From NCBI RefSeq assembly GCF_028858535.1, contig NZ_JAPMOU010000001.1, forward strand, positions 1-64,000: a stretch of 64,000 nt of DNA. Direction: 5' to 3'. The translations under genes and the position numbers were made by a program. Of this stretch, positions 456 to 13,932 are shown in pieces (position 1 is the stretch's first letter; each line of letters starts with the position of its first letter). The notes under the pieces were generated by a model. It did no database searches, was not told the DNA's origin, and was given only the letters and a program-made list of their open reading frames with translations. The DNA comes from Spartinivicinus poritis. Its GTDB lineage: Bacteria; Pseudomonadota; Gammaproteobacteria; Pseudomonadales; Zooshikellaceae.

Positions 456-526
456 TCTCACAGTTTCTATTTTTGGTTCAATCCTACCAATTTAAGACCA
501 AAAACTGTCTACAGTATTGATTGGTT

Positions 527-1210
527 ATGATAGATGTAATTTTCAATCACTCAGATTTTGTTGTTATTAACAAGCCTGCTGGAGTGAGTGTACATAAAGA
601 TGATCAAGCAATAAGTTTTATTAACAAGTTACAACAACGATTAAATGAGCCGCAATTATATTTAGTCCATCGGCTTGATAAAATCACCTCAGGTTTATTG
701 ATTCTAGCCAAAAATACCACTGCTAATCGCGAGCTATCATCAGCCTTTCAACAACGCAAAGTGGAGAAGTATTATATTGCGTTAGCTGATAAACGTCCTA
801 GTAAAAAACAAGGATTGGTTAAAGGCGATATGACCAAGTCAAGACGTGGCTCTTGGAAACTGCTTCGTTCAACAGAAAACCCTGCTATCAGCCAGTTTTT
901 TAGCTTTGGCTGCGACAAGGGGTTACGCTTATTTTTGATCAAACCTTATACAGGAAAAACCCACCAAATTCGTGTAGCGCTAAAAAGCCTTGGCTCTCCT
1001 ATTATTGGCGACAGCCTGTATTACCCAAATCCTGAAGAAAATATTGACCGCGGCTATTTACATGCCTTCGCCTTACAGTTTCACTACCATAATCAACTTG
1101 TTCAACTGCATTGTATGCCCAACACTGGTCGCCTATTTACCCTGGAGGCTATACAGCAACAGTTAGCCAGTTTGTCTCAACCCTGGTTGTTGAATTGGCC
1201 GAAAATTTAA
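527..1210 (+). CDS. RluA-family RNA pseudouridine synthase
   Basis: The 227-residue product isomerises uridine to pseudouridine in rRNA or tRNA in the cytoplasm; the target base cannot be read from sequence. The diagnostic VHRLDKITSGLL motif lies near residues 48-59, with the catalytic aspartate at about residue 51. The opening stretch VINKPAGVSVH and the later KPYTGKTHQIR block are the other conserved RluA segments. There is no S4 domain, so it belongs to the short RluA-like group. A TTG at 521 is also in frame, but the ATG at 527 is preferred. The gene converges on the Cse2-like gene and ends 7 bases before its stop. Confidence 0.88.
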   Translation: MIDVIFNHSDFVVINKPAGVSVHKDDQAISFINKLQQRLNEPQLYLVHRLDKITSGLLILAKNTTANRELSSAFQQRKVEKYYIALADKRPSKKQGLVKGDMTKSRRGSWKLLRSTENPAISQFFSFGCDKGLRLFLIKPYTGKTHQIRVALKSLGSPIIGDSLYYPNPEENIDRGYLHAFALQFHYHNQLVQLHCMPNTGRLFTLEAIQQQLASLSQPWLLNWPKI

Positions 1211-1217
1211 GAGTATT

Positions 1218-1751
1218 TTATGCCACTTGATAACGACCATTATAAAACTGATCTGATGCTATTAGAGAAAAAGCATCTTTGGCATCCCATAAAAAACTTT
1301 TTTTATCTTGCCACTCTACTGCTCGGTGAAACACTAAGTGACAAAGATCTGCTGTAGTGTAGCTTGCTTTGATAATATTAAGATGCTTTACTGCCGACCG
1401 CATTGCAATAAAAAACGCATTCCAGCTTTTAGCTGAAATAATTTGTTGGAATCGAGACTCATCAAATTCCATTCCTGAGATAAGCGGTCTACCTAGACAG
1501 TTAAAAAAGCTACCATGCCCTTTAGAAGGCGCCGCCCTTGCCAACAAGCATAATAATACCTGTAGTCCCATGTGTTGTTTTTCTGGCCAGCGTATTTTTT
1601 GGGCGACTTTTGTATAAATTAACCACTCTTCGTTAAATTCAGCTAAGTCATGAATATACAACAAGTTTCGCTTTTCATTAAATGCCAACTTGCGGCGCCA
1701 ATTTAACACATAATATAAAGAAGGTAGATGCATGCTCTTAAAGGTTAACAT
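1218..1751 (-). CDS. Orphan Cse2/CasB-like protein (type I-E Cascade small subunit family)
   Basis: The 177-residue product has the layout of Cse2. A tryptophan-containing IRWPEKQHM stretch is followed by the hydrophobic helix LQVLLCLLARAAP, then a CLGRPL block, then SRFQQIISA and a helix ending in MRSAVKHL. By eye these match E. coli Cse2 segments around GWENPRHQ, MVFCLSAG, LGRALANSG, IFQLIRAD and LRRLLTHAEP in the same order. In type I-E systems Cse2 dimers bind crRNA and target DNA inside Cascade. Here no cas3, cse1, cas7, cas5, cas6, cas1 or cas2 gene and no repeat array is present nearby. The ATG at 1751 follows a strong GGGGGAGA ribosome site, so the frame looks expressed rather than decayed. 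An unrelated helical protein remains possible. Confidence 0.62.
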   Translation of the reverse strand: MLTFKSMHLPSLYYVLNWRRKLAFNEKRNLLYIHDLAEFNEEWLIYTKVAQKIRWPEKQHMGLQVLLCLLARAAPSKGHGSFFNCLGRPLISGMEFDESRFQQIISAKSWNAFFIAMRSAVKHLNIIKASYTTADLCHLVFHRAVEWQDKKSFLWDAKDAFSLIASDQFYNGRYQVA

Positions 1752-2014
1752 CCTGTCTCCCCCTTACTTCCACAATGAATGATTGAATATATAGTGTAGT
1801 AGTCAGCAAGCAGAAGTTTTTTAATTATCCACCAACAGAAGGTTTATTATTATTATTCATAATCAGCATGAAATATGCCTACTACGACATCATTATTTAG
1901 TATAAACCAGCTCTTCATACGAACTTTTTCTTCTAATAACTAAGTCATTTATTGACTGTTATTGCTTATACTTACTAACAAGGGCAACTCTGTAAGCTGT
2001 CGAGGTGCAAAATT

Positions 2015-2554
2015 ATGTCTGACAAGCTGCTTATTCTTGATCTTGATGAGACGCTAATTCATGCTGAGCTGATTCCTCTGGAATTACCCCATGCCTTTGT
2101 CGCATGTCCTTACTTTATATACACTCGTCCTTATCTTGATGAATTTCTAGCGTTTTGCCAGCAACACTTCAAGCTTGCAGTGTGGACTACAGGTAACCAG
2201 CTTTATGCAGATACTATAGTTGCTCACCTGTTTGGCTCAGCAGATCAGTTAGAGTTTGTCTGGGCCAGAGACCGCTGTATTAGCCACTACCATTCTGAGC
2301 TTGATTGCAATTACTACATTAAAGATCTGAAAAAAGTTAAACGGCATGGCTACGACCTAGAAGATGTATTAGTGATTGATGACTCGCCAGAAAAACTGGA
2401 AAGACAGTATAGCAACCTGATCCCTGTTGCCCCTTACTATGGTGAACCAACAGATAAAGAACTTAAACTGCTAATGAGTTACTTAGCTTCAATAGAAGAA
2501 GCCGACAATATTCGTTCAATAGATAAACGGGGCTGGCACCAACAAGTGGCCTAG
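2015..2554 (+). CDS. HAD-superfamily phosphatase of the FCP1/NIF (CTD phosphatase-like) type
   Basis: The 179-residue protein starts almost directly with ILDLDETLIH, giving the DxDxT catalytic motif at residues 9-13. A WTTG motif II follows near 57-60, lysines near 103-110, and VIDDSP near 120-125 as the metal-binding acidic pair. A TRPYLDEFL segment before motif II is typical of the NIF/FCP1 branch, better known for dephosphorylating phosphoserine proteins in eukaryotes. The bacterial substrate is unknown. There is no signal peptide, so it should be cytoplasmic. A GAGGTG ribosome site lies 8 bases before the ATG. Its stop shares the tetranucleotide CTAG with the converging phosphopantetheinyl transferase gene. 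Confidence 0.82.
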   Translation: MSDKLLILDLDETLIHAELIPLELPHAFVACPYFIYTRPYLDEFLAFCQQHFKLAVWTTGNQLYADTIVAHLFGSADQLEFVWARDRCISHYHSELDCNYYIKDLKKVKRHGYDLEDVLVIDDSPEKLERQYSNLIPVAPYYGEPTDKELKLLMSYLASIEEADNIRSIDKRGWHQQVA

Positions 2555-3434: not shown

Positions 3435-4469
3435 TTAACCTTGGCAAGTAACCGCATAAAATAAGCAGTCACTTTTGGCTATGATTGGATTAGTCGTTAT
3501 CATAAAGGCTTTCACTGGCTGTTTGGGAAATAGTTGATTACCCTCCACTCGCAACAGCTCTTGAGAAATATCTTTACCCTCATGAGAAACTACTTGAAAG
3601 CAGTCTATTCCCCTCTCCCCTAACCAACCTAATTGAATATCAGTATCAACAACGCCAAAATTTAAATGCTCAATATTCAGTGGTAAGGTAATATCCACAC
3701 CCTCAACAGGCGCTATGTTATAAGCAATCGTTACATCTGGCTTCAACTCTACTCGAACAGGGTTGTAGAGTATTTCTAATTCTCGATCTGTAGCAGGATA
3801 TTGAAATACATCATCAAGCAACAAAAAACGATCAACAGACTCTATGGCCAATAAGTGTGCTTGTTCGTCTTGTGTTCCCCCACACTCAACCGTAATCGTC
3901 GGCACATCTTGTTCAGATAGCTCCATTAGTGAACCCAAGCGTAGATTAGTGACAATCAACCGGTCAACAAAATGAGAAACTAGTGCCTGATGAGCTAAGT
4001 CATTACAAATACTCACTGCAAAAGCAGGCCCAGAGCCTGATGTATTATGAATATCAATTAAGCACTCTGGCTGCTCTTCCTTTAAAAAGTCTAGAAATGA
4101 TTTTGCCACGAGCCCAGGATAGTCCTCAAAAGGCTCCTTAAAACAACGGTTCAAATCCCTCTCACTTGGTAAATGACGATAGAAAAATCTTGGATGCTCC
4201 AGTGCTGCCGCTACAGCCCCAATAAAAAATACAGTGTTTACAGCTGGCTGTTTCCCCGACTTGAGCCAGTTAAACACTGCATGTAAACCTGAAGGCTCAT
4301 TACCATGCAGTAGTGTGGATATAACTCTAGTACGGCTAGCATCCAATCCTGCTAATTGAATAATAGTTGGCTGCTTTAAACGTGAAAGAAACTCATCAAT
4401 GGAATGACCAATATCGTCAGGGCCAGGCTGAATCCATACATTTATTAATGATGACATGCTTTTATTCAT
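3435..4469 (-). CDS. Succinylglutamate desuccinylase/aspartoacylase-family zinc amidohydrolase
   Basis: The 344-residue product belongs to the AstE/ASPA branch of M14 metallopeptidases, which cut N-acyl or peptide-like amide bonds of amino acids. The zinc ligands are visible as HGNEPSG (His about 55, Glu about 58) and DIHNTSG (His about 141). ERDLNR carries the substrate-binding Asn-Arg pair, and TVECGG near residue 195 supplies the likely catalytic glutamate. The start at 4469 overlaps the stop of the upstream ligase gene as ATGA, with GGAG 12 bases upstream; an in-frame start at 4484 is less likely. It is not in an arginine catabolism context, so AstE itself is unlikely. The substrate is probably the product of the neighbouring ligase, which is inference. 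Confidence 0.82.
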   Translation of the reverse strand: MNKSMSSLINVWIQPGPDDIGHSIDEFLSRLKQPTIIQLAGLDASRTRVISTLLHGNEPSGLHAVFNWLKSGKQPAVNTVFFIGAVAAALEHPRFFYRHLPSERDLNRCFKEPFEDYPGLVAKSFLDFLKEEQPECLIDIHNTSGSGPAFAVSICNDLAHQALVSHFVDRLIVTNLRLGSLMELSEQDVPTITVECGGTQDEQAHLLAIESVDRFLLLDDVFQYPATDRELEILYNPVRVELKPDVTIAYNIAPVEGVDITLPLNIEHLNFGVVDTDIQLGWLGERGIDCFQVVSHEGKDISQELLRVEGNQLFPKQPVKAFMITTNPIIAKSDCLFYAVTCQG

Positions 4470-5953
4470 GGTGAAATACTCCATTCACAAACTGGCTTGC
4501 CACTCCGATAGCCTTGAATATAGCGAGTTAACATTTCCGCAAATGCTTCTTCTCTGTTGTTGGACTTTAATAAATGATTAGTCACTAATCGTTGCCATTT
4601 TGCACCACAAATGCGTTGTTCAATACGCCCTTGAATAACATTCATCAACCGCTTTATTTCAGTATGACATAGTTCAGTTGTCTCCAGTGCATGAAACGCT
4701 TTTGGTAGCAAGTGCTTGGCTATATGCAATACTGACTCTTCATGCAGATGAACCTGTGTTTTTGCAGGCCAAACCAAACGCGCATCCATGCCATATTTTG
4801 CTGCTCGATAAAAATTATGTTCAGCATAATTAAATGGTAAGACAGAAGTTAAATGTTTAATATCAGGTAAAACAGCCATAGCACAGCCTATGGCAAACAG
4901 TGCATTTGCACTCATATCTATTAACGTTGGTCCAGCTGGCAAAGAGCGCATTTCGATACGCAAATGCCCACCATCAACATCATCATATATTGCTCGATTC
5001 CACTGCCACGTTGTACCTTGATGAAGTCGTAACTCTTCTAATTTAGGTGTTTTCCCGGCAGCAAAACACGCATGAGGATTTTCATCACCTATCACTGGGA
5101 TAATTGGTGGGAATAATGCTGCTGATGCAGCAAATAATTCCCAAGCACTTTCTCTTACCCAACCATTACCAAAAAACACTCGCGGCGGATGACGCCAACT
5201 TTGTTCATGGGATGAACGACTATCGATAGACTGCTTAAACAAAGCAATACGCGTTTCAGCCCACAAATGATGGCCAAATAAACTAGGTGAGTTCGAAGAT
5301 AAAGCTAAAACAACAGGTGTTACTAACTGAACCGCATTAAAATAATCTGCATATTGACTTGTAGGTACCCGCCAGTGGATCTGAAAAGAAGTACTTGCTC
5401 CTTCTAACGTCACATCATTGGTCTCTAGTTCAAGAGGTTCCTTGCCATCAATTGCAATCTTAAAAGGACCACCACGCATTTTACACAAAGCATGGGAAAG
5501 TGCCCGATACCTTGGAATATCGGTCATTGTTTGATCATCAAAATCTTTTTTAGTTAATGTTGGCAGAATACCTATTGGTATAACTTGCCCCCTATGCAGT
5601 GTTGCCGCTTCGTCAATTTTCTTTATTGCAGTATTCAGCTCCTGTTCAATCGCCATAAAAGGAGCACCACAATAAGGCTGCGGGCTTAGGTTATACTCTA
5701 AATTAAAACGGTTAAGCTCTACCGTTAATTGCGGGTCTTGAAGTAAAGCATTAATTTCCATATTAATAGGCAAGAGCTTGTGTTGGTGATCAACAATATA
5801 AAACTCTACTTCTGCCCCCAATGATGCTTGACCTACCCCAAAATCAGGATCTGCTAGTAGCTTTTTAAGCACATCTAAGTCATCACGAACCTTTTGTTCA
5901 AAAAGCACAAAGTCTTGATTTGAAAAGGTGTCTGTTTCAATTGAAAGCCCCAT
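4466..5953 (-). CDS. GCS2-type glutamate-cysteine ligase-like amide ligase
   Basis: The 495-residue protein matches the GCS2 carboxylate-amine ligase family, enzymes that use ATP to join a glutamate-type carboxylate to an amine. Visible family features are SLGAEVEFYIVD near residues 45-55, with the metal-binding glutamates, an ASTSFQIHWRVP block near 185-196, and LRIEMRSLPAGP near 330-341. The gene is translationally coupled (ATGA) to a downstream AstE-like amidohydrolase. This suggests a make-and-break pair acting on one amide compound. It could be a true gamma-glutamylcysteine synthase or act on another amine; sequence alone does not decide. An AT-rich inverted repeat at 5967-6001 lies just upstream. 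Confidence 0.82.
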   Translation of the reverse strand: MGLSIETDTFSNQDFVLFEQKVRDDLDVLKKLLADPDFGVGQASLGAEVEFYIVDHQHKLLPINMEINALLQDPQLTVELNRFNLEYNLSPQPYCGAPFMAIEQELNTAIKKIDEAATLHRGQVIPIGILPTLTKKDFDDQTMTDIPRYRALSHALCKMRGGPFKIAIDGKEPLELETNDVTLEGASTSFQIHWRVPTSQYADYFNAVQLVTPVVLALSSNSPSLFGHHLWAETRIALFKQSIDSRSSHEQSWRHPPRVFFGNGWVRESAWELFAASAALFPPIIPVIGDENPHACFAAGKTPKLEELRLHQGTTWQWNRAIYDDVDGGHLRIEMRSLPAGPTLIDMSANALFAIGCAMAVLPDIKHLTSVLPFNYAEHNFYRAAKYGMDARLVWPAKTQVHLHEESVLHIAKHLLPKAFHALETTELCHTEIKRLMNVIQGRIEQRICGAKWQRLVTNHLLKSNNREEAFAEMLTRYIQGYRSGKPVCEWSISP

Positions 5954-5966
5954 CGTTATCCCTAAC

Positions 5967-6001
5967 TTATAATTATGTTAAAATTATTGTAACAATTATA
6001 A
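5967..6001. promoter_or_regulatory. AT-rich inverted repeat upstream of the GCS2-like gene
   Basis: TTATAATT at 5967-5974 is repeated inverted as AATTATAA at 5994-6001, and the spacer also contains partly matching AT-rich words. It lies 14-48 bases before the ligase start. It could be a regulator site, but AT-rich palindromes occur by chance in this genome. Confidence 0.25.
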
Positions 6002-6052
6002 CACCACAATAAATTTCCCTCATAATGAGTATATACCTATTAAACTAGTACT

Positions 6053-6080
6053 CTTATACTCTTCACAAATGATTTTTAGA
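6053..6080 (-). repeat. Dispersed intergenic repeat, copy 3 (diverged)
   Basis: On the minus strand it reads CTAAAAATCATTTGTGAAGA followed by GTATAAGA. It matches the core of the copies at 3290 and 8124 but lacks the GGGGTA start. It lies 22 bases after the stop of the MarC-family gene. Confidence 0.55.
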
Positions 6081-6102
6081 TTTTGTTACCAACTGTCACT
6101 CA

Positions 6103-6720
6103 CTATCCAAAAGCTTTTATTGCTCCAAAAGCTCCTATAATTAGCATTTGAGTACCTATTACAGACAAAATTAATCCCATTAGTCGTGTAACAATACTTA
6201 GACCACTTTCACCAATAAAATCGACTATTTTTTGACCAAAAATAAAGCTCAAAAAAGTAACCATGCAAAGTATGCCAAATGTTACAACCGTAATGATGAT
6301 TTCTATTAGTTGTCCTGTTGCTGAATAATTCATAGCTGTTGCAATGGTACCAGGGCCAGCTAAGATTGGTACAGCTAAGGGGGAAACTGATATATCACTA
6401 TCATGTGTTTCTTGGGGTTTATGCATACTAGAGCTTTTTCCATGCAGCATTTGGTAGCCCACGATAAAAACTAGCACCCCTCCTGCAATTCTCAGTGCTG
6501 GCAGTGAAATACCAAATAGATGAAAAATAGTTTTACCCAAAATAGCAAAGACGAGAATAATAAAAAATGAAATAATAAGCGCTCTTGTAGCAATTGTGAT
6601 CTGAAATGACCTGTCTTCTTTACCAGTTAAACTTACAAAAACAGCTGTGTTTGCAATAGGGTTCATAATGGCTAAAAAAGCTAAAAATACGCTTAGAGAG
6701 TGTTGAAATAATTCAAACAT
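6103..6720 (-). CDS. MarC-family integral membrane protein
   Basis: The 205-residue protein is strongly hydrophobic with about six membrane segments, and contains the MarC-family signature AIMNPIANTAVFVSLT near residues 17-32 and a second AVPILAGPGTIATAMN block near 116-131. These two related loops, each with Asn/Pro-Gly, are typical of the family, which includes E. coli YhgN and MarC. Transport function in the inner membrane is suspected for the family, but substrates are not established. The start at 6720 follows a GGGAA ribosome site. The gene stands alone. Confidence 0.88.
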   Translation of the reverse strand: MFELFQHSLSVFLAFLAIMNPIANTAVFVSLTGKEDRSFQITIATRALIISFFIILVFAILGKTIFHLFGISLPALRIAGGVLVFIVGYQMLHGKSSSMHKPQETHDSDISVSPLAVPILAGPGTIATAMNYSATGQLIEIIITVVTFGILCMVTFLSFIFGQKIVDFIGESGLSIVTRLMGLILSVIGTQMLIIGAFGAIKAFG

Positions 6721-7022
6721 TGTATTCCCTTCATGAAGTTACATATTAGGATGACTATCTTATTAGATTGCCTTTATAGGAACAATGCTGCTTTAAATAA
6801 TTTGTATCAAAAAATAAATCCCGTTAACTAATATCACCCTCATTAACCAATCCACCAAACTTGGTCCACTCAGCAAAGAAACACAAGCTCAATTAAAGTG
6901 GTATAACTGAGAGGTAGTTTTTGTACCTCAAATTTGTACCTTGAAGTTCATCTCGATTTTTGTGACAGTAGAATCTTTGGCTTACCTCTATATTGGAATT
7001 TATTAATATAGGATATAACCCT
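6721..7022. other. Intergenic region between divergent genes
   Basis: This stretch separates the MarC gene from the rightward gene at 7023 and should hold both promoters. A small hairpin, GAGGTA at 6911-6916 with TACCTC at 6924-6929, is visible. No ORF with a family resemblance, RNA gene or repeat copy was recognised. Confidence 0.5.
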
Positions 7023-7466
7023 ATGAAACTAAAAGCACTTTGCACCCTGCTTGCTTTTTCTGCTCTTTCTATCACCTCTGTTGAAGCACGTGATACAAGG
7101 GTAATGCATTCAATTCAAGAAGCATTAAGTAAGCCTGCTGCCAAAGAAAAATTACTACCTAACGTACCATTATACTTTGGTAATCAGCCTACCCCTAGAG
7201 TACTGAAAACTCTTGGGGAGTATATGTCGAATAAAAAAACCAATGCGTTTAATAAATCAGATAAAGAAGCCTGTCAGTGGGTGATTTTGTCAGCATTAAT
7301 TTCTCTGCAACAACGAGCTTTACAAGAAGGTGGTAATGCGGTTGTTAATATCAAGTCTTATTATAAGAAAAATGAAATCTCCAGCACGACTGAATTTGAG
7401 TGTGGCGCAGGCGCACTCATCGCAGGCGTTACTTTAAAAGGAACCGTGGTAAAACTTGCCAGATAA
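7023..7466 (+). CDS. Small exported protein of unknown function
   Basis: The 147-residue product begins with a clear signal peptide (MKLKALCTLLAFSALS, cleavage probably after SVEA). The mature part contains two cysteines, in KEACQWV and EFECGAG, that could form a disulfide. The C-terminal block QEGGNAVVNIKSYYKK and GAGALIAGVTLKGTVVKL resembles small periplasmic proteins that databases often mislabel as excinuclease ATPase subunit. The start at 7023 is preferred over one at 6993 because the signal peptide begins there and AGGA lies 9 bases upstream. No function is proposed. Confidence 0.72.
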   Translation: MKLKALCTLLAFSALSITSVEARDTRVMHSIQEALSKPAAKEKLLPNVPLYFGNQPTPRVLKTLGEYMSNKKTNAFNKSDKEACQWVILSALISLQQRALQEGGNAVVNIKSYYKKNEISSTTEFECGAGALIAGVTLKGTVVKLAR

Positions 7467-7478
7467 GAAAAATAAGCT

Positions 7479-7500
7479 GTCCACTCAGCTATGAGTGGAC
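7479..7500 (+). terminator. Hairpin after the exported-protein gene
   Basis: GTCCACTCA and TGAGTGGAC form a perfect 9-bp stem with a 4-base loop, starting 12 bases after the stop at 7466. The T-rich tail is weak (CTTTAATT) on the plus strand. On the minus strand a T-rich run follows, so it may act in both directions. Confidence 0.55.
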
Positions 7501-7576
7501 CTTTAATTCCTAGTAATCTATTAATACCCAGTAACCTATCCACTCATAATTGTTACACTACCAATAAAAATATACA

Positions 7577-7966
7577 TTAACTCTCCATCTTCAACTGCTG
7601 CGTAATCGTCGTATATAAATTATTTATCCGCCGATTATAATTTCGGTGAATTTTTCCATCAGAATACAGCAAATTTTGACTATCAACATAGGTTATATTG
7701 AGGTAGCGTTGATCATAGCTAATTTTGACTGTGGCTTCATGAGTCCCTCTAACCAGTATACTGGCTAAAACACTGCCATCGTCCTGTACCCGTGGCACCC
7801 AGCCTTTTAATTGACATGCTTTCATCACAGCCGCTTTTACCTCTCTCAATTCGTAAGCCTGACCATCTAACCGAGAAGGAAGTAACTGTTGTTCAATATT
7901 ATGAATGGCTGTTGTTCGACAAGCACTTAAACTAAGCACCATTAACAAGAGGAGTATTTTTTTCAT
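7577..7966 (-). CDS. Small lipoprotein of unknown function
   Basis: The 129-residue protein starts with MKKILLLLMVLSLSAC, a lipoprotein signal with the LSAC lipobox, so cysteine 16 should be lipidated. The mature part contains a KACQLKGWVPR segment and alternating strands such as EATVKISYDQRYLNITYVDS, suggesting a small beta-rich periplasmic domain. It stands alone, divergent in function from its neighbours. The residue after the lipid cysteine is Arg, not Asp, so outer-membrane sorting by Lol is expected. No named family was recognised with confidence. Confidence 0.72.
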   Translation of the reverse strand: MKKILLLLMVLSLSACRTTAIHNIEQQLLPSRLDGQAYELREVKAAVMKACQLKGWVPRVQDDGSVLASILVRGTHEATVKISYDQRYLNITYVDSQNLLYSDGKIHRNYNRRINNLYTTITQQLKMES

Positions 7967-8123
7967 AGTTTTCTTTATGTTGCCCGCTTGATTGAAAGTT
8001 GGTATTAACTATCCCTAATTACTACTCTTTTACTTACTTAAAAAGTAGATGAAATAGCCTTAGGCAACAAACTTGTCTGAATAGATATACCTATCATGGA
8101 TCATTTTTAGATGTAAAAATAAA

Positions 8124-8160
8124 GGGGTATAAAAATTATTCGTGAAGAGTATAGTTAGGA
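8124..8160 (+). repeat. Dispersed intergenic repeat, copy 2
   Basis: It reads GGGGTATAAAAATTATTCGT continuing GAAGAGTATAGTTAGGA on the plus strand. It differs from copy 1 at only a few positions over about 35 bases. It lies 4 bases beyond the stop of the LysR-type gene, in the opposite orientation to the other two copies. Confidence 0.7.
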
Positions 8161-8164
8161 GCAG

Positions 8165-9070
8165 TTACGACTCTTCACGTAAGTGCTTTGTCTTTTCTAC
8201 CATAAAGTCAATAAACGCCCTAAACTTTGGCAGCATCGCATTCTTCTTATCGTAAAATAAATACCCCTCCATTTTTTTAGTAAAAACATCCTCAAATAAA
8301 GCAATCAATCGCCCGGACTTTAAATAAGGTCTACATATTAACTCCGGACAGTCAATGATTCCCAGCCCTTGTAAACCAGCAGAAATAACAGCATCCACGG
8401 AGTTAAAGGTTATTTTTGCAGGAGGAATTATCGTTTCAATATCAGCAAAAAACTTTAGTGTCTGTTGTGGCGAGCGGGTTTTATGATAGATAAACTCGTG
8501 ATGCTTTAAGTCACCTAAAGACTCAGGTGTTCCAAACTTTTTCAGGTAAGTGGGGGATGCTGAAAACAAGGCAGAAACTGATAGTAATCGCCGACAATAT
8601 AAGTCACCAGGCAATTCTTTATAACGGTTGCTAAACCCGACTAATATATCCACTTCTTGGCGACTGAAATCTGGAATACGATCAGATATTTCTACATCAA
8701 GCTGTATCTTAGGATAGCGCTGATAAAACTCTGATAAGTGCTCAATTAAATAACGATGCCCAGTATAAATAGACGATACAACTCGCAGCTTACCTTCAGG
8801 CTCTTGATGGACTCGATCAGCAAATGACTCCGTAACGGCCAATAAAGCTTGCAGCTCTTTGCAGTGTTCATAGAACCGAGCCCCTTGCTCAGTCAATTTT
8901 AGTGTACGAGTAGATCGTTGCAGTAGTGAAAAGCCAAGCTCTTGTTCAAGCTTCTTCATCTGGATACTGACAGCGGCTGCGGATAGATCAAGCTTCCCAG
9001 CCGCACGACTGAAGCTTTGTTTTTCAACCACTTCGATAAAAGTCATCATGTATGGGATTGCAGTAACCAC
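8165..9070 (-). CDS. LysR-family transcriptional regulator
   Basis: The 301-residue protein has the LysR winged helix at the N-terminus (SFSRAAGKLDLSAAAVSIQM near residues 19-38, then LEQELGFSLLQRSTRTLKLT) and a substrate-binding domain from about residue 90. The GTG start at 9070 is supported by GAGAAGG 8 bases upstream; the next ATG would cut into the first helix. It is divergent from an MFS exporter gene with a 118-base gap, the usual layout for a LysR regulator controlling its neighbour. The effector is unknown. The N-terminal domain type resembles regulators of small efflux pumps, which is only an inference. Confidence 0.92.
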   Translation of the reverse strand: MVTAIPYMMTFIEVVEKQSFSRAAGKLDLSAAAVSIQMKKLEQELGFSLLQRSTRTLKLTEQGARFYEHCKELQALLAVTESFADRVHQEPEGKLRVVSSIYTGHRYLIEHLSEFYQRYPKIQLDVEISDRIPDFSRQEVDILVGFSNRYKELPGDLYCRRLLSVSALFSASPTYLKKFGTPESLGDLKHHEFIYHKTRSPQQTLKFFADIETIIPPAKITFNSVDAVISAGLQGLGIIDCPELICRPYLKSGRLIALFEDVFTKKMEGYLFYDKKNAMLPKFRAFIDFMVEKTKHLREES

Positions 9071-9188
9071 CGACTTGCCTTCTCAACTATTAAAAAATAT
9101 TTAACAATGACTTAAAAATAAACACATTTATTAAATTTAGTCAATCAATATACTTTAGCTTTTCCCCTTACAAAAGTTAGTTGAAGTC

Positions 9189-10391
9189 ATGAGCACTGCC
9201 GTACAGAGCGAAAAGCTATATTCCCCTCCCATCTATTTACTTATGTTACTCATGAGCTTTGCCTCTTTGGTAGCCATTGTTATTACCCCAGCATTACCAG
9301 AGATCAGTGAAGCCTTTCAAATTAAGCCAACTCAATCCACCTGGCTGGTAACAGCATTTTTACTGGGATATGCCATAGGGCAATTACCTTATGGAGTTTT
9401 GGCTAATCGGTATGGGCGTAAAAAGGCCGCACTAACAGGCTTAGTCATTGCGTTGATAGGCAGCTTAATTCAATTTATAGCCATTATGGAAAGCAGCTTT
9501 GCAGGGCTGGTAATTGCCCGGATAATCATTGCTTTTGGTGGTGCATGTGGGCCCGTTGTATCCCTGACCGTGTTATCAGACTGTTATGATGAGCAAAATG
9601 CCAGAAAAAAACTGTCTACCCTATTTCTTATTTTTGCTCTTATGCCTTGTGTTGCTATCGCTATTGGCGGCTTTTTAACGACACATTACGGTTGGCAAAG
9701 CACTATGCAAATTGCGAGTGTTTATATTGTTTTTATTGTAGTTGCTACTTACAGCCAGTTGAATGAAACACTGCCTGAAAGCCAGTATAAGCCAATTCAA
9801 ATATCAAGCAACATAAAAGGGATAGTAAACGCATTTAAAAGCCCTAACTATTTAGCTTTTACTTTATTAGCAACTGCGGGCACTGCAACTGTCTATATTT
9901 TTAATAGCCTTTCTCCCTTTTTATCTATTACTGTTATTAAAATGAGTCCGCAACATTTTGGACTACTCAGCATTATTACATCAGTAGGGCTACTCATCGG
10001 TTCTTATTTATCCGGCAAAGCCAGCCTTAAATATTGTGGTAGAAAAATTCTGATGCTTGGTATCATGATTCTACTTAGCAGCAGTATCATTTTATTTACT
10101 CTGTTTAAAGCAACTTTTATAAATACCTTCAGTTTATTTGTACCAGCATTTTTCTTATTTATAGGCGTAGCGCTAATCCTGCCTAATGCTACAACCCTTG
10201 CAATGACTTGTGTTGAGGATAAGGCCAATGGCGCAGGGTTGATGAATACAAATAATTTACTACTGACAGGCATCGGTGTTTCATTGAGCGGCCACTTTGC
10301 AAAAAGCAGCCTACTAACGCTGCCTATCGCGGTGTTAACCATTTCTGTTGTATGCATAGCTATTCTTATATTGATAACAAAAAGTAAATAA
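9189..10391 (+). CDS. MFS drug-efflux-type transporter (Bcr/CflA-like)
   Basis: The 400-residue protein has about twelve membrane segments. The first helix pair carries ITPALPEISEAF and the loop between helices 2 and 3 has YGVLANRYGRKKA, the MFS motif A. Motif C-like sequence follows helix 5, as in proton-driven 12-segment exporters. It should sit in the inner membrane and export a small molecule. It is divergent from the LysR gene, which probably regulates it. Substrate unknown. The end is followed by a GAGGCTGTCGCAAAAC word that resembles an insertion-sequence end. Confidence 0.88.
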   Translation: MSTAVQSEKLYSPPIYLLMLLMSFASLVAIVITPALPEISEAFQIKPTQSTWLVTAFLLGYAIGQLPYGVLANRYGRKKAALTGLVIALIGSLIQFIAIMESSFAGLVIARIIIAFGGACGPVVSLTVLSDCYDEQNARKKLSTLFLIFALMPCVAIAIGGFLTTHYGWQSTMQIASVYIVFIVVATYSQLNETLPESQYKPIQISSNIKGIVNAFKSPNYLAFTLLATAGTATVYIFNSLSPFLSITVIKMSPQHFGLLSIITSVGLLIGSYLSGKASLKYCGRKILMLGIMILLSSSIILFTLFKATFINTFSLFVPAFFLFIGVALILPNATTLAMTCVEDKANGAGLMNTNNLLLTGIGVSLSGHFAKSSLLTLPIAVLTISVVCIAILILITKSK

Positions 10392-10513
10392 CCCACCATC
10401 TTAAAGAGGCTGTCGCAAAACTTTGCAGATATGGAGTAACAAGATGTCCTGTAGCTAGGGCATGAGAGCCTTTGCTATGTAATAAATATTTGGCTTAACC
10501 TGTTTTCATAGAA

Positions 10514-10533
10514 AGTAGTTAGCTTTAACTACT
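10514..10533 (-). terminator. Hairpin overlapping the stop of the solute-binding protein gene
   Basis: AGTAGTTA at 10514-10521 pairs with TAACTACT at 10526-10533 around a 4-base loop. On the minus strand a short TTTC follows. The upstream arm includes the stop codon of the gene ending at 10525. Confidence 0.45.
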
Positions 10534-11265
10534 AAGATGATATTTTTTTAGTATTTTATTCCACTCATTATTTTCTTTAATATTCTTTGTTACATCTAAA
10601 ATAAATTGGTGTAACTTCTTAAGCTGTGGATTGGTAAATATACAATGCCCAAAGGTGTAGGGTGGTTTTTTAGATAAATAGATGTTAGGCACATTCATCT
10701 CTTTTAATAAGTACTTAGTTGATGCCATAGACATTATACCGATATCAGCTCTATTGGAGTTAACCATTTTAATTGCTGCCGGCCAGTTTGGCGCTTCGGC
10801 AATAACATTTATATCATAATATTTATAATCTTTATCTGAAAAAAAACGATGCCCAAGAATACCAATAATAGATACCCCCCTAAAAGACTCCATACTCTCA
10901 AACTCAAATGGCTTACTTTTATGCGATATAATAGCGTTTTCATCTGGTATAATGGGATCTGACCATAGGTATTTTATTTTTTCACCATCTCCAAACCATA
11001 ATGGATACGCAAAAATGACAATTTCATAGTTTCCTGTCATTAAGTGTTTATCCAAACGTTTTCTTGGAATATACCTTACTGAAAAGTGGTATTTGCCATG
11101 AGATAGTTTGCTTAATAGCGATGCAAAATCGTAGATTAGCCCTGTTTGCTGTTTAGTATCAATAACAAATGGCTGAAAATCATAGTAAGTATAAGCCGTT
11201 ACTTTTTCCTTAGCATATAGGAAATGACTAAGAAAAAGAGTAAACCAGAGCATTACTATTTTCAT
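10525..11265 (-). CDS. Solitary periplasmic solute-binding protein (SBP family 3)
   Basis: The 246-residue protein begins with a signal peptide (MKIVMLWFTLFLSHFLYA) and has the fold pattern of amino-acid-type binding proteins: AYTYYDFQPFVID near the mature start, then RYIPRKRLDKHL, a LWSDPIIPDENAIIS hinge segment and NRADIGIMSM. No ABC permease or ATPase gene lies beside it, so it may serve a distant transporter or another role such as sensing. The gene sits between an MFS exporter (convergent) and the end of the pigment cluster. Ligand unknown. Confidence 0.82.
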   Translation of the reverse strand: MKIVMLWFTLFLSHFLYAKEKVTAYTYYDFQPFVIDTKQQTGLIYDFASLLSKLSHGKYHFSVRYIPRKRLDKHLMTGNYEIVIFAYPLWFGDGEKIKYLWSDPIIPDENAIISHKSKPFEFESMESFRGVSIIGILGHRFFSDKDYKYYDINVIAEAPNWPAAIKMVNSNRADIGIMSMASTKYLLKEMNVPNIYLSKKPPYTFGHCIFTNPQLKKLHQFILDVTKNIKENNEWNKILKKYHLSS

Positions 11266-11419
11266 CTACATCTTAAGACCTGCTAACACTAACTATGAAT
11301 AATATAGAAGTACTGACATCACATAGCAACAATCTAAAATAGGATATAAACTAGCCCCTTTGCAAGAATCAGCTTTAGTAACCTTAAAAAAGCATTTGGC
11401 TTTCAATCAGACAAACCTT

Positions 11420-11456
11420 TCTGAGGTAAGCTTCCTCCAACTACTGTTACCTCAGA
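11420..11456 (-). terminator. Stem-loop downstream of the aryl polyene operon
   Basis: TCTGAGGTAA at 11420-11429 and TTACCTCAGA at 11447-11456 form a perfect 10-bp stem with a 17-base loop. It lies 61 bases after the last gene of the cluster. The T-run on the minus strand is poor, so factor-independent termination is uncertain. Confidence 0.5.
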
Positions 11457-11516
11457 GTATCCTTCGTTTTCAACAACCTGCTCTTAGTAAAAATAACTAA
11501 CTAGCGCTAAAAAGGT

Positions 11517-12743
11517 TTAATCCCAGCGCTTAAAAATTAACGAGGTATTTACTCCACCAAAAGCAAAATTATTGCTGGTGATATATTCACAGTTCAACTC
11601 GCGGCCTTCACCCATAATATAATCAAGCTCACCACACTGGTCGTCTACTTCGGTTAGATTAATGGTAGGGGCAAACCAGTTATTATTCATCATTTCAATG
11701 GATAACCAGGCTTCAATTGCTCCACAGGCCCCGAGAGTATGCCCCAAATAGCTTTTTTGAGAACTGATTGGCATGATATTGCCGTATACTTGCTCAGTTG
11801 CTTGGGTTTCTGCAATATCGCCACGATCAGTGGCAGTACCATGAGCACTGACATAACCAATGGCTTCGGGTGCTAACTCAGCATCTTTTAGCGCCAGCTC
11901 CATTGCAATAGCCATGGTTTCAGCATTCGGCTGGGTAACATGGGCACCATCAGTATTGGAGCCAAACCCGACAATTTCAGCATAGATAGGCGCCCCTCTA
12001 GCAATTGCATGTTCTAATTCTTCAAGAATTAGCGTGCCAGCTCCTTCACCAATGACCAATCCATCACGGGCTTTGTCGAACGGACGTGGGGTTAATTCCG
12101 GGGTATCATTTTTAGTGCTGGTAGCAAATAGTGTATCAAATACCATAGCTTCCGTTGGGCAAAGCTCTTCTGCTCCACCCGCTACCATCATATCTTGCAT
12201 ACCGTATTTAATGGCTTCATAGGCAAAACCGATAGCCTGGCTACCTGAGGTACATGCACTACTGGTAGGAATAAGCCGTCCGGTTAATCCAAAAAATAAA
12301 CCAATATTAACTGCTGCCGTATGACTCATCATTTGGATATAGCTGGTAGCCGTTACCCCTTTACAACTACCTTCCGTAATCATTGAACCAAACGCACCCA
12401 ATGGTTCAGTGCTCCCAACCGAAGAGCCGTAAGCAACGCCCATGGAACCTAGGCGAATTCTAGGATCATCTAATAAACCGGCATTTTCTAACGCCAACTC
12501 TGTGGCACGAGTAGCCATTAAACTCACTCGCCCCATACTGCGAATTTTTTTGCGCGAATAATGGGAAGGGGCAGAAAAGTCAGGTACTGGCCCCGCCAGT
12601 CGGGTATGCATACCTTCAAACCGCTCCCAGTCTTCCATTCGGGTAATGCTGCTTTGCTTGGCTTTTAAATTAGCCTGCACCTGCTCCCAGCTCTGGCCAA
12701 TTCCGGTAATACAGGACATGCCTGTCACTACCACACGACGCAT
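11517..12743 (-). CDS. apeR: Aryl polyene beta-ketoacyl-ACP synthase (ApeR-like)
   Basis: The 408-residue protein is a FabF-type condensing enzyme. The nucleophilic cysteine is in TSSACTSGS near residue 164, and the two catalytic histidines are in SAHGTATDRGD and YLGHTLGACGA, so the triad is complete. In aryl polyene pathways this ketosynthase is thought to perform early chain extension with malonyl units. The ATG at 12743 is chosen because GGAGG lies 9 bases upstream; a start at 12749 would place the ribosome site too close. It overlaps the stop of the ketoreductase gene as TAATG and is the last gene of the cluster. Confidence 0.9.
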   Translation of the reverse strand: MRRVVVTGMSCITGIGQSWEQVQANLKAKQSSITRMEDWERFEGMHTRLAGPVPDFSAPSHYSRKKIRSMGRVSLMATRATELALENAGLLDDPRIRLGSMGVAYGSSVGSTEPLGAFGSMITEGSCKGVTATSYIQMMSHTAAVNIGLFFGLTGRLIPTSSACTSGSQAIGFAYEAIKYGMQDMMVAGGAEELCPTEAMVFDTLFATSTKNDTPELTPRPFDKARDGLVIGEGAGTLILEELEHAIARGAPIYAEIVGFGSNTDGAHVTQPNAETMAIAMELALKDAELAPEAIGYVSAHGTATDRGDIAETQATEQVYGNIMPISSQKSYLGHTLGACGAIEAWLSIEMMNNNWFAPTINLTEVDDQCGELDYIMGEGRELNCEYITSNNFAFGGVNTSLIFKRWD

Positions 12744-13477
12744 TAGCATAACCCTCCATTAACAGAAATCACTTGTCGGGTAATATAGGCCGCATCTTCT
12801 GACATTAAATAATTCACCAATGACGCCACCTCTTCAGGTTTACCCACCCGGCGAGCAGGAATTTGCTTAACAATTTCAGTAACAGGCAAATCATCTGTCA
12901 TATCAGTATCAATTAAACCAGGCGCTACACAATTAACCGTAATTTTTCGCTTAGCTAATTCAATAGCCAATGCTTTAGTGGCACCTATAATACCCGCTTT
13001 TGCTGCACTATAATTCACCTGCCCTCGATTACCAATTAATCCTGAAACTGAAGCCATGGTGACAATGCGTCCAGGCTTTCTGTTCTGAACCATCGGCATG
13101 GTTAAGGGTTTCAGTACATTATAAAAGCCATCAAGATTGGTATGGATAACCTGATCCCAATCACTGTCTGTCATGGCAGGAAAGGCATTATCTGCCGTTA
13201 AACCGGCGTTACACACCACGCCATAATAAACCCCATGCAGGCTAATATCTTCGGTTAATACCGCTTCACACTGATCCCGGTCGCTAATATCAAACTGAAG
13301 CAATGTTGCACTTAGTCCAGCTTCAGTTAATTGGCTGACGACAGATTCTGCCTGTTGCTGCCCCTGACGATAATGCACCACAACTTGATAGCCTGACTCA
13401 GCCAAACGCAGCGCAATTGCTTTACCAATACCACGGCTGGAGCCAGTAATTAAAATTCGTTTATTGCTATTATTCAT
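12743..13477 (-). CDS. apeQ: Aryl polyene 3-ketoacyl-ACP reductase (ApeQ-like)
   Basis: The 244-residue protein is a FabG-type short-chain dehydrogenase that reduces the 3-keto group of the growing chain with NADPH. The cofactor motif TGSSRGIGKAIA lies near residues 11-22, VCNAGLTADN near 88-97, and the catalytic YSAAKAG near 155-161 with the upstream serine in MASVSGL. The C-terminal VISVNGGLC is typical of FabG. It overlaps both neighbours by a few bases, showing tight translational coupling within the cluster. Confidence 0.93.
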   Translation of the reverse strand: MNNSNKRILITGSSRGIGKAIALRLAESGYQVVVHYRQGQQQAESVVSQLTEAGLSATLLQFDISDRDQCEAVLTEDISLHGVYYGVVCNAGLTADNAFPAMTDSDWDQVIHTNLDGFYNVLKPLTMPMVQNRKPGRIVTMASVSGLIGNRGQVNYSAAKAGIIGATKALAIELAKRKITVNCVAPGLIDTDMTDDLPVTEIVKQIPARRVGKPEEVASLVNYLMSEDAAYITRQVISVNGGLC

Positions 13478-13932
13478 AATTGTTTAAAAAATTCTGCAGA
13501 GTCATTTGGCTGAAATACATTTATACTGGCTTCAGCAACTAATTCCGGGTGATAAATAGCACAATCAAAAACGCTTAACCCTTCATCTTCATATTTTTTG
13601 CTTGCTCTCACCTGATAAGTATGACTCATTAATAATGCATCAGCCAAACACGTATAGCGTCGTGTACCTAATAGAAACCCTATTTTTACTGGCTCATTAG
13701 CTAGTTTATGCTGAATACCTGCAAATAAACCGATCGTTTGAGCCATATATTCTAAACCAAACCAAATAGGTATTAGCTGTTGCTGATGGTTTAAAAAATA
13801 AGATTGTTTATTAACAGTAAAGCTTGCTGCAACAAAATCAGCACCATAATCTTCCACCCGACCCAATAAAATCATGGGATGATCATGGGGTAATAACTCC
13901 TCTGGCTGCCAATTGGGTTGTGCATTACTCAT
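13474..13932 (-). CDS. apeP: Aryl polyene dehydratase, hotdog fold (ApeP-like)
   Basis: The 152-residue protein has the opening LLPHDHPMILLGRV, which resembles the FabA/FabZ-type hotdog start, and the long central helix IWFGLEYMAQTIGLFAG. In characterised aryl polyene systems ApeP acts with ApeI to dehydrate 3-hydroxyacyl-ACP to the conjugated enoyl chain. The glutamate of the central helix (GLEYMAQ) is a likely catalytic acid. It overlaps the ketoreductase start by four bases and ends its 5' side next to the ApeO-like ketosynthase. Confidence 0.85.
   Translation of the reverse strand: MSNAQPNWQPEELLPHDHPMILLGRVEDYGADFVAASFTVNKQSYFLNHQQQLIPIWFGLEYMAQTIGLFAGIQHKLANEPVKIGFLLGTRRYTCLADALLMSHTYQVRASKKYEDEGLSVFDCAIYHPELVAEASINVFQPNDSAEFFKQL

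Follow-up and report, generated by a model that had tools for sequence, protein, structure and literature searches.

A conserved solo relative of the type I-E Cascade small subunit Cse2/CasB (Cas11e) in three species of Spartinivicinus

A 177-residue protein encoded near a contig edge of Spartinivicinus poritis is a homologue of Cse2/CasB (Cas11e). Its gene lies at the same locus in three species of the genus, is under strong purifying selection and stands in genomes from which the rest of Cascade is absent. Co-option of Cas11e in some form is very probable in our judgement, and the leading reading, to which we give a probability of roughly 0.6, is co-option with a nucleic-acid-binding mechanism. 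According to this reading, a type I-E Cascade small subunit would have lost its Cascade and stayed as a stand-alone chromosomal gene. The protein would keep the two-bundle helical fold of Cse2 and, with K58, R100 and K108, some of the basic surface by which the displaced DNA strand is held in Cascade, would bind single-stranded DNA or RNA without crRNA, perhaps as a head-to-tail oligomer, and would serve some housekeeping or regulatory task. Binding of single strands or RNA is suggested by the role of the ancestor in Cascade together with the basic positions that were kept. We also put forward, tentatively, a more specific picture of a solo, domesticated Cas11, in which a free-standing, strongly conserved chromosomal protein, needing no guide RNA, would act on single-stranded nucleic acid or R-loops as part of cell maintenance.

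The window, which is the whole stretch of 64,000 nucleotides that was analysed, begins where its contig begins. A sequence-only reading of this DNA had described the frame as intact, with a standard start and a strong ribosome site, and this description holds: the frame consists of 177 codons opening with ATG, and the minus strand at its 5' side reads GGGGGAG-ACAGG-ATG (Table 1; G001 and G002 denote the genomes of the two other species). The gene is convergent with a gene for an RluA-type pseudouridine synthase and divergent from one for a NIF-family HAD phosphatase. When the intergenic region between the divergent genes was scanned, two promoter-like sites were obtained against 3.3 expected, and thus no promoter motif above chance was found in that region.

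Table 1. Coordinates of the orphan gene and of neighbouring features in the window
Feature	Position	Strand	Basis
Orphan Cse2/CasB (Cas11e) homologue, 177 aa	1218-1751	(-)	profile matches, reciprocal profile search, hhalign and shuffles, BLASTP, dN/dS
Ribosome-binding site region (GGGGGAG, 5 nt before ATG)	1752-1768	(-)	sequence reading; intact in G001, G-rich in G002
Divergent intergenic region common to the orphan and the NIF-family phosphatase gene; presumed promoter(s)	1752-2014		three-species alignment
RluA-type pseudouridine synthase gene	521-1210		
NIF/FCP-like HAD phosphatase gene	2015-2554	(+)	
DDE_5-like transposase fragment at the contig edge	3-461	(-)	
AstE/AspA-like deacylase and GCS2-like ligase genes	3435-5953	(-)	

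The product had been called Cse2-like from its sequence, and a check against PF09485 had been proposed. A match to this profile was present (20.1 bits, E = 9.6e-4) but did not reach the curated cut-off of 24.6 bits, and TIGR02548 likewise matched the window protein (19.6 bits, E = 7.4e-4) below its curated cut-off of 28.5 bits. The PADLOC matches were all to Cas11e models, with E = 2.3e-4 for the window protein and values down to 4.7e-6 for an ortholog. Considering that the PF09485 search also gave chance-looking matches with E values of 0.001-0.01 in other genomes, the Pfam and TIGR results alone would not be conclusive, and we therefore searched in the reverse direction, scanning 391 genomes from the order and 369 from the class with a profile built from the three orphans only. 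Beyond the genus, this profile gave six matches at E <= 0.01, comprising four intact frames, all of which were genuine casB genes between cse1 and cas7, and two broken frames, which look like noise. Using hhalign, the orphan profile was aligned with 28 Cse2 proteins at a score of 46.9, whereas none of 400 column shuffles scored above 22.4 and the reversed profile scored 12.9; the local alignment spanned 60-161 and the global one 2-177, so that the proteins are homologous over most of their length. In BLASTP, the G002 ortholog was 32% identical to one casB product over 114 aa (E = 1e-7). While Pfam and TIGR scores under the cut-offs are what a chance or convergent likeness of an unrelated small helical protein might give, the reciprocal searches, the shuffles and the BLASTP value of 1e-7 make this account extremely improbable, and chance similarity as such was ruled out by the reciprocal search and the shuffles. 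On these profile and alignment comparisons, we regard the homology as secure and the orphan as a genuine though strongly diverged member of the wider Cse2/CasB (Cas11e) kinship.

The similarity is strongest over residues 55-160, and the first 45 residues align poorly. The orphan resembles the small subunit of type I-E Cascade (PF09485, TIGR02548) in size and helical layout, is 20-32% identical to the nearest members, and carries a conserved core made of the RFQQ block, an L-x-G block and a W-x-A-x-D motif near the C-terminus. It differs from the family in that it stands alone in a genome without Cascade, scores under the family cut-offs, has lost the tryptophan of the 'hW' motif, and shows no recognisable LRR motif and hence no assignable R27 for docking to Cas7.

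Within the genus, both other species have an ortholog at the same locus (97% and 84% identity), with no stops. The dN/dS ratio was 0.033 between the window gene and G001 and 0.040 between G001 and G002, and in the latter, more distant pair the synonymous sites are near or past saturation. The constraint on the orphan is stricter than that on the neighbouring genes for RluA, a phosphopantetheinyl transferase, and the deacylase-like and GCS2-like proteins, and is matched or exceeded only by that on the phosphatase gene. In the tree, whose root and exact sister group of the orphans are not fixed, the stem leading to the orphans has 5.1 changes per site against at most 0.17 inside the genus. A long stem followed by constraint suggests either a long change of character or a long separation, and is the pattern expected of a gene with a new task; the near-unchanged state of the protein in three species probably reflects a new job. 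A gene left over from a lost type I-E locus and now decaying without function would agree with the long stem branch and with the lack of other cas genes, but this account is rejected by dN/dS values of 0.03-0.04 and by frames that are intact in three species although synonymous sites in the distant pair are saturated or close to it, and we assign it a next to negligible probability.

The sequence-only reading had offered two origins for the gene. A survivor of a lost locus helped by the nearby transposase is not supported, given the strong purifying selection and the same locus in both other species, where that transposase does not adjoin it. The other proposal, a Cse2-like protein with another role, is supported as far as a retained, Cascade-independent function is concerned, and this role may be nucleic-acid binding. 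The DDE_5-like fragment at the contig edge does not adjoin the orphan locus in G001 or G002, and capture by an IS was ruled out, given that the locus is common to three species and that IS is not beside it in the relatives.

The orphan status of the gene, also noted earlier from the window alone, extends to all three genomes of the genus that were searched. In the window, neither cas remnants nor CRISPR-sized direct repeats were found and Rfam gave no match, and cas remnants were likewise not found within the 19 kb around each of the G001 and G002 orthologs. Whole-genome family searches found no Cse1, Cas7e or Cas5 in any of the three genus genomes, and in the window genome no Cse2 over the cut-off and no Cas1; a search with the Cas3 core mostly picked up generic helicases and was uninformative. 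A full cas operon directly left of the window edge, which had been feared, was not found: in G001 and G002 this side holds rluA, a phosphatase/response regulator, alaS and lysC. A hidden cas operon beyond the contig edge was thus ruled out by the whole-genome family searches and by the G001 and G002 contigs of over 6 Mb. When the neighbours of homologs were surveyed, as had been suggested, Cse1 and/or Cas7 lay within 1.5 kb at all ordinary Cse2 loci (30/30) versus none of the orphan loci (0/3). The gene is a true orphan in these three genomes, and their gene content argues against its being part of a crRNA-guided Cascade.

Among the three genomes, Cas1 was found only in G001, inside two type I-F CRISPR-Cas sets on the same 176-kb contig (L043, G001:C2:120000-139900, at 4616-13662; L042, G001:C2:42000-61900, at 10330-13633). 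One of them is apparently intact with an array, the cas2-3 frame of the other ends at an IS6-like transposase, and neither is type I-E. These sets show that CRISPR on a separate replicon occurs in the genus, which would suit an orphan acting in trans as accessory subunit for plasmid CRISPR effectors that come and go, for example a type I-E Cascade without its small subunit. However, the sets are type I-F, and type I-F systems are not known to have a separate Cas11 gene. Type I-E parts occur in 0/3 genus genomes, the R27 docking motif is not recognisable, and the constraint on the orphan exceeds what would be expected for occasional use. We consider this service in trans improbable.

AlphaFold gave no usable model from the orphans alone. 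With 31 sequences (the orphans and 28 Cse2 proteins), a model was obtained with a pLDDT of 70, falling below 50 at the C-terminus. Its nine best PDB matches were all Cse2/CasB chains, with TM scores of 0.43-0.58 and Foldseek E values all above 0.1. As the input alignment was mostly Cse2, the fold matches are a weak test and not independent evidence, and the predicted structure agrees with a Cse2 fold to this extent.

Docking of E. coli Cse2 to Cas7 involves R27 and R101, and the displaced strand is guided by R53, R110, R142 and R143 (PMC5965380). Residue correspondences were taken from the HMMER alignment and by eye, and the MAFFT placement of E. coli CasB, which was visibly wrong, was set aside. 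R100 of the orphan is the equivalent of the Cas7-docking R101, K58 in the conserved WPEKQ block falls at about R53, and K108 lies beside the position of R110. Part of the basic DNA-contact surface of Cse2 thus seems to be kept. The (L/I)RR motif with R27 varies little or not at all in Cse2 (96% for the second R), whereas all orphans read H-D-L with a leucine in the R27 column, in an N-terminal region of uncertain alignment. Because K27-R28 nearby could replace the LRR motif, loss of Cas7 docking is likely, not proven, and the unrecognisable motif is consistent with release from Cascade.

The same residues bear on whether the co-opted protein might bind no nucleic acid and act by protein-protein contacts only, for instance by scaffolding a helical partner. 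The lack of a recognisable LRR motif, the conservation that runs along the whole protein and the net charge of only +1 in the G002 ortholog would be compatible with such a role, and a charge this low speaks only weakly for nucleic-acid binding. Basic residues are nevertheless kept near the positions of E. coli R53, R101 and R110, and we regard a role by contacts only as unlikely, preferring co-option with nucleic-acid binding.

The orphan gene is absent from the sister genus; the neighbourhood there is not syntenic, and so no empty site and no remnant can be seen. No close relatives were found in plasmids, phages or viral contigs by tblastn and degenerate pattern scans at the sensitivity of those tools, nor in a species-level genome collection at the sensitivity of protein and alignment scans, and a viral fold search returned nothing useful. 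This bears on a further account, in which the protein is a host-borne decoy, a Cse2-derived CRISPR inhibitor that poisons incoming type I-E Cascades and shields the cell's own plasmids. Since R100, one of the two Cas7 anchors, is kept and the second cannot be recognised, the protein could conceivably assemble and block. Yet relatives were not found in phages, plasmids or viral contigs in those scans, and conservation is housekeeping-like on a chromosome without a type I-E system, which makes a decoy very improbable. Under the co-option that we favour, the best reading is that Cascade was lost before the genus diversified and that the genus ancestor had already co-opted the small subunit.

Full-text literature searches, which many subscription papers lay outside, returned no description of a solo Cse2/Cas11e, and the closest precedents are solo Cas4 and the reviews of CRISPR exaptation (PMC5704561, PMC8730458). 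Like the orphan, solo Cas4 and certain other cas genes are single cas-derived genes that persist with no CRISPR locus (PMC5704561), although Cas4 is a nuclease belonging to the adaptation module and the orphan a non-enzymatic effector subunit. Cas11 filaments of type IV-B bind heterogeneous small RNAs without classic crRNA-guided immunity (PMC8730458), but type IV-B still has Cas7-like partners, of which none was found for the orphan. Cas11e is not catalytic, and in E. coli no role of its own has been firmly assigned to it; according to a recent study, neither silencing nor plasmid interference requires it there (PMC12235044). A lineage in which this subunit alone was kept, under housekeeping-like constraint, offers a natural test of the abilities of the fold by itself. 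In the latest CRISPR classification, profile matches outside cas islands were counted as false positives during profile tuning (PMC12669027), and solo cas genes could therefore be systematically missed.

Among the neighbouring genes, the phosphatase gene is as conserved within the genus as the orphan, was not found in the sister genus or in four other tested genomes of the order, and is a possible functional neighbour. In G001 only, a gene for a TctC-like solute-binding protein (L006, 7940-8908) lies between rluA and the orphan. The deacylase and GCS2-like ligase genes are adjacent, with slightly overlapping frames, and are conserved in all three species.
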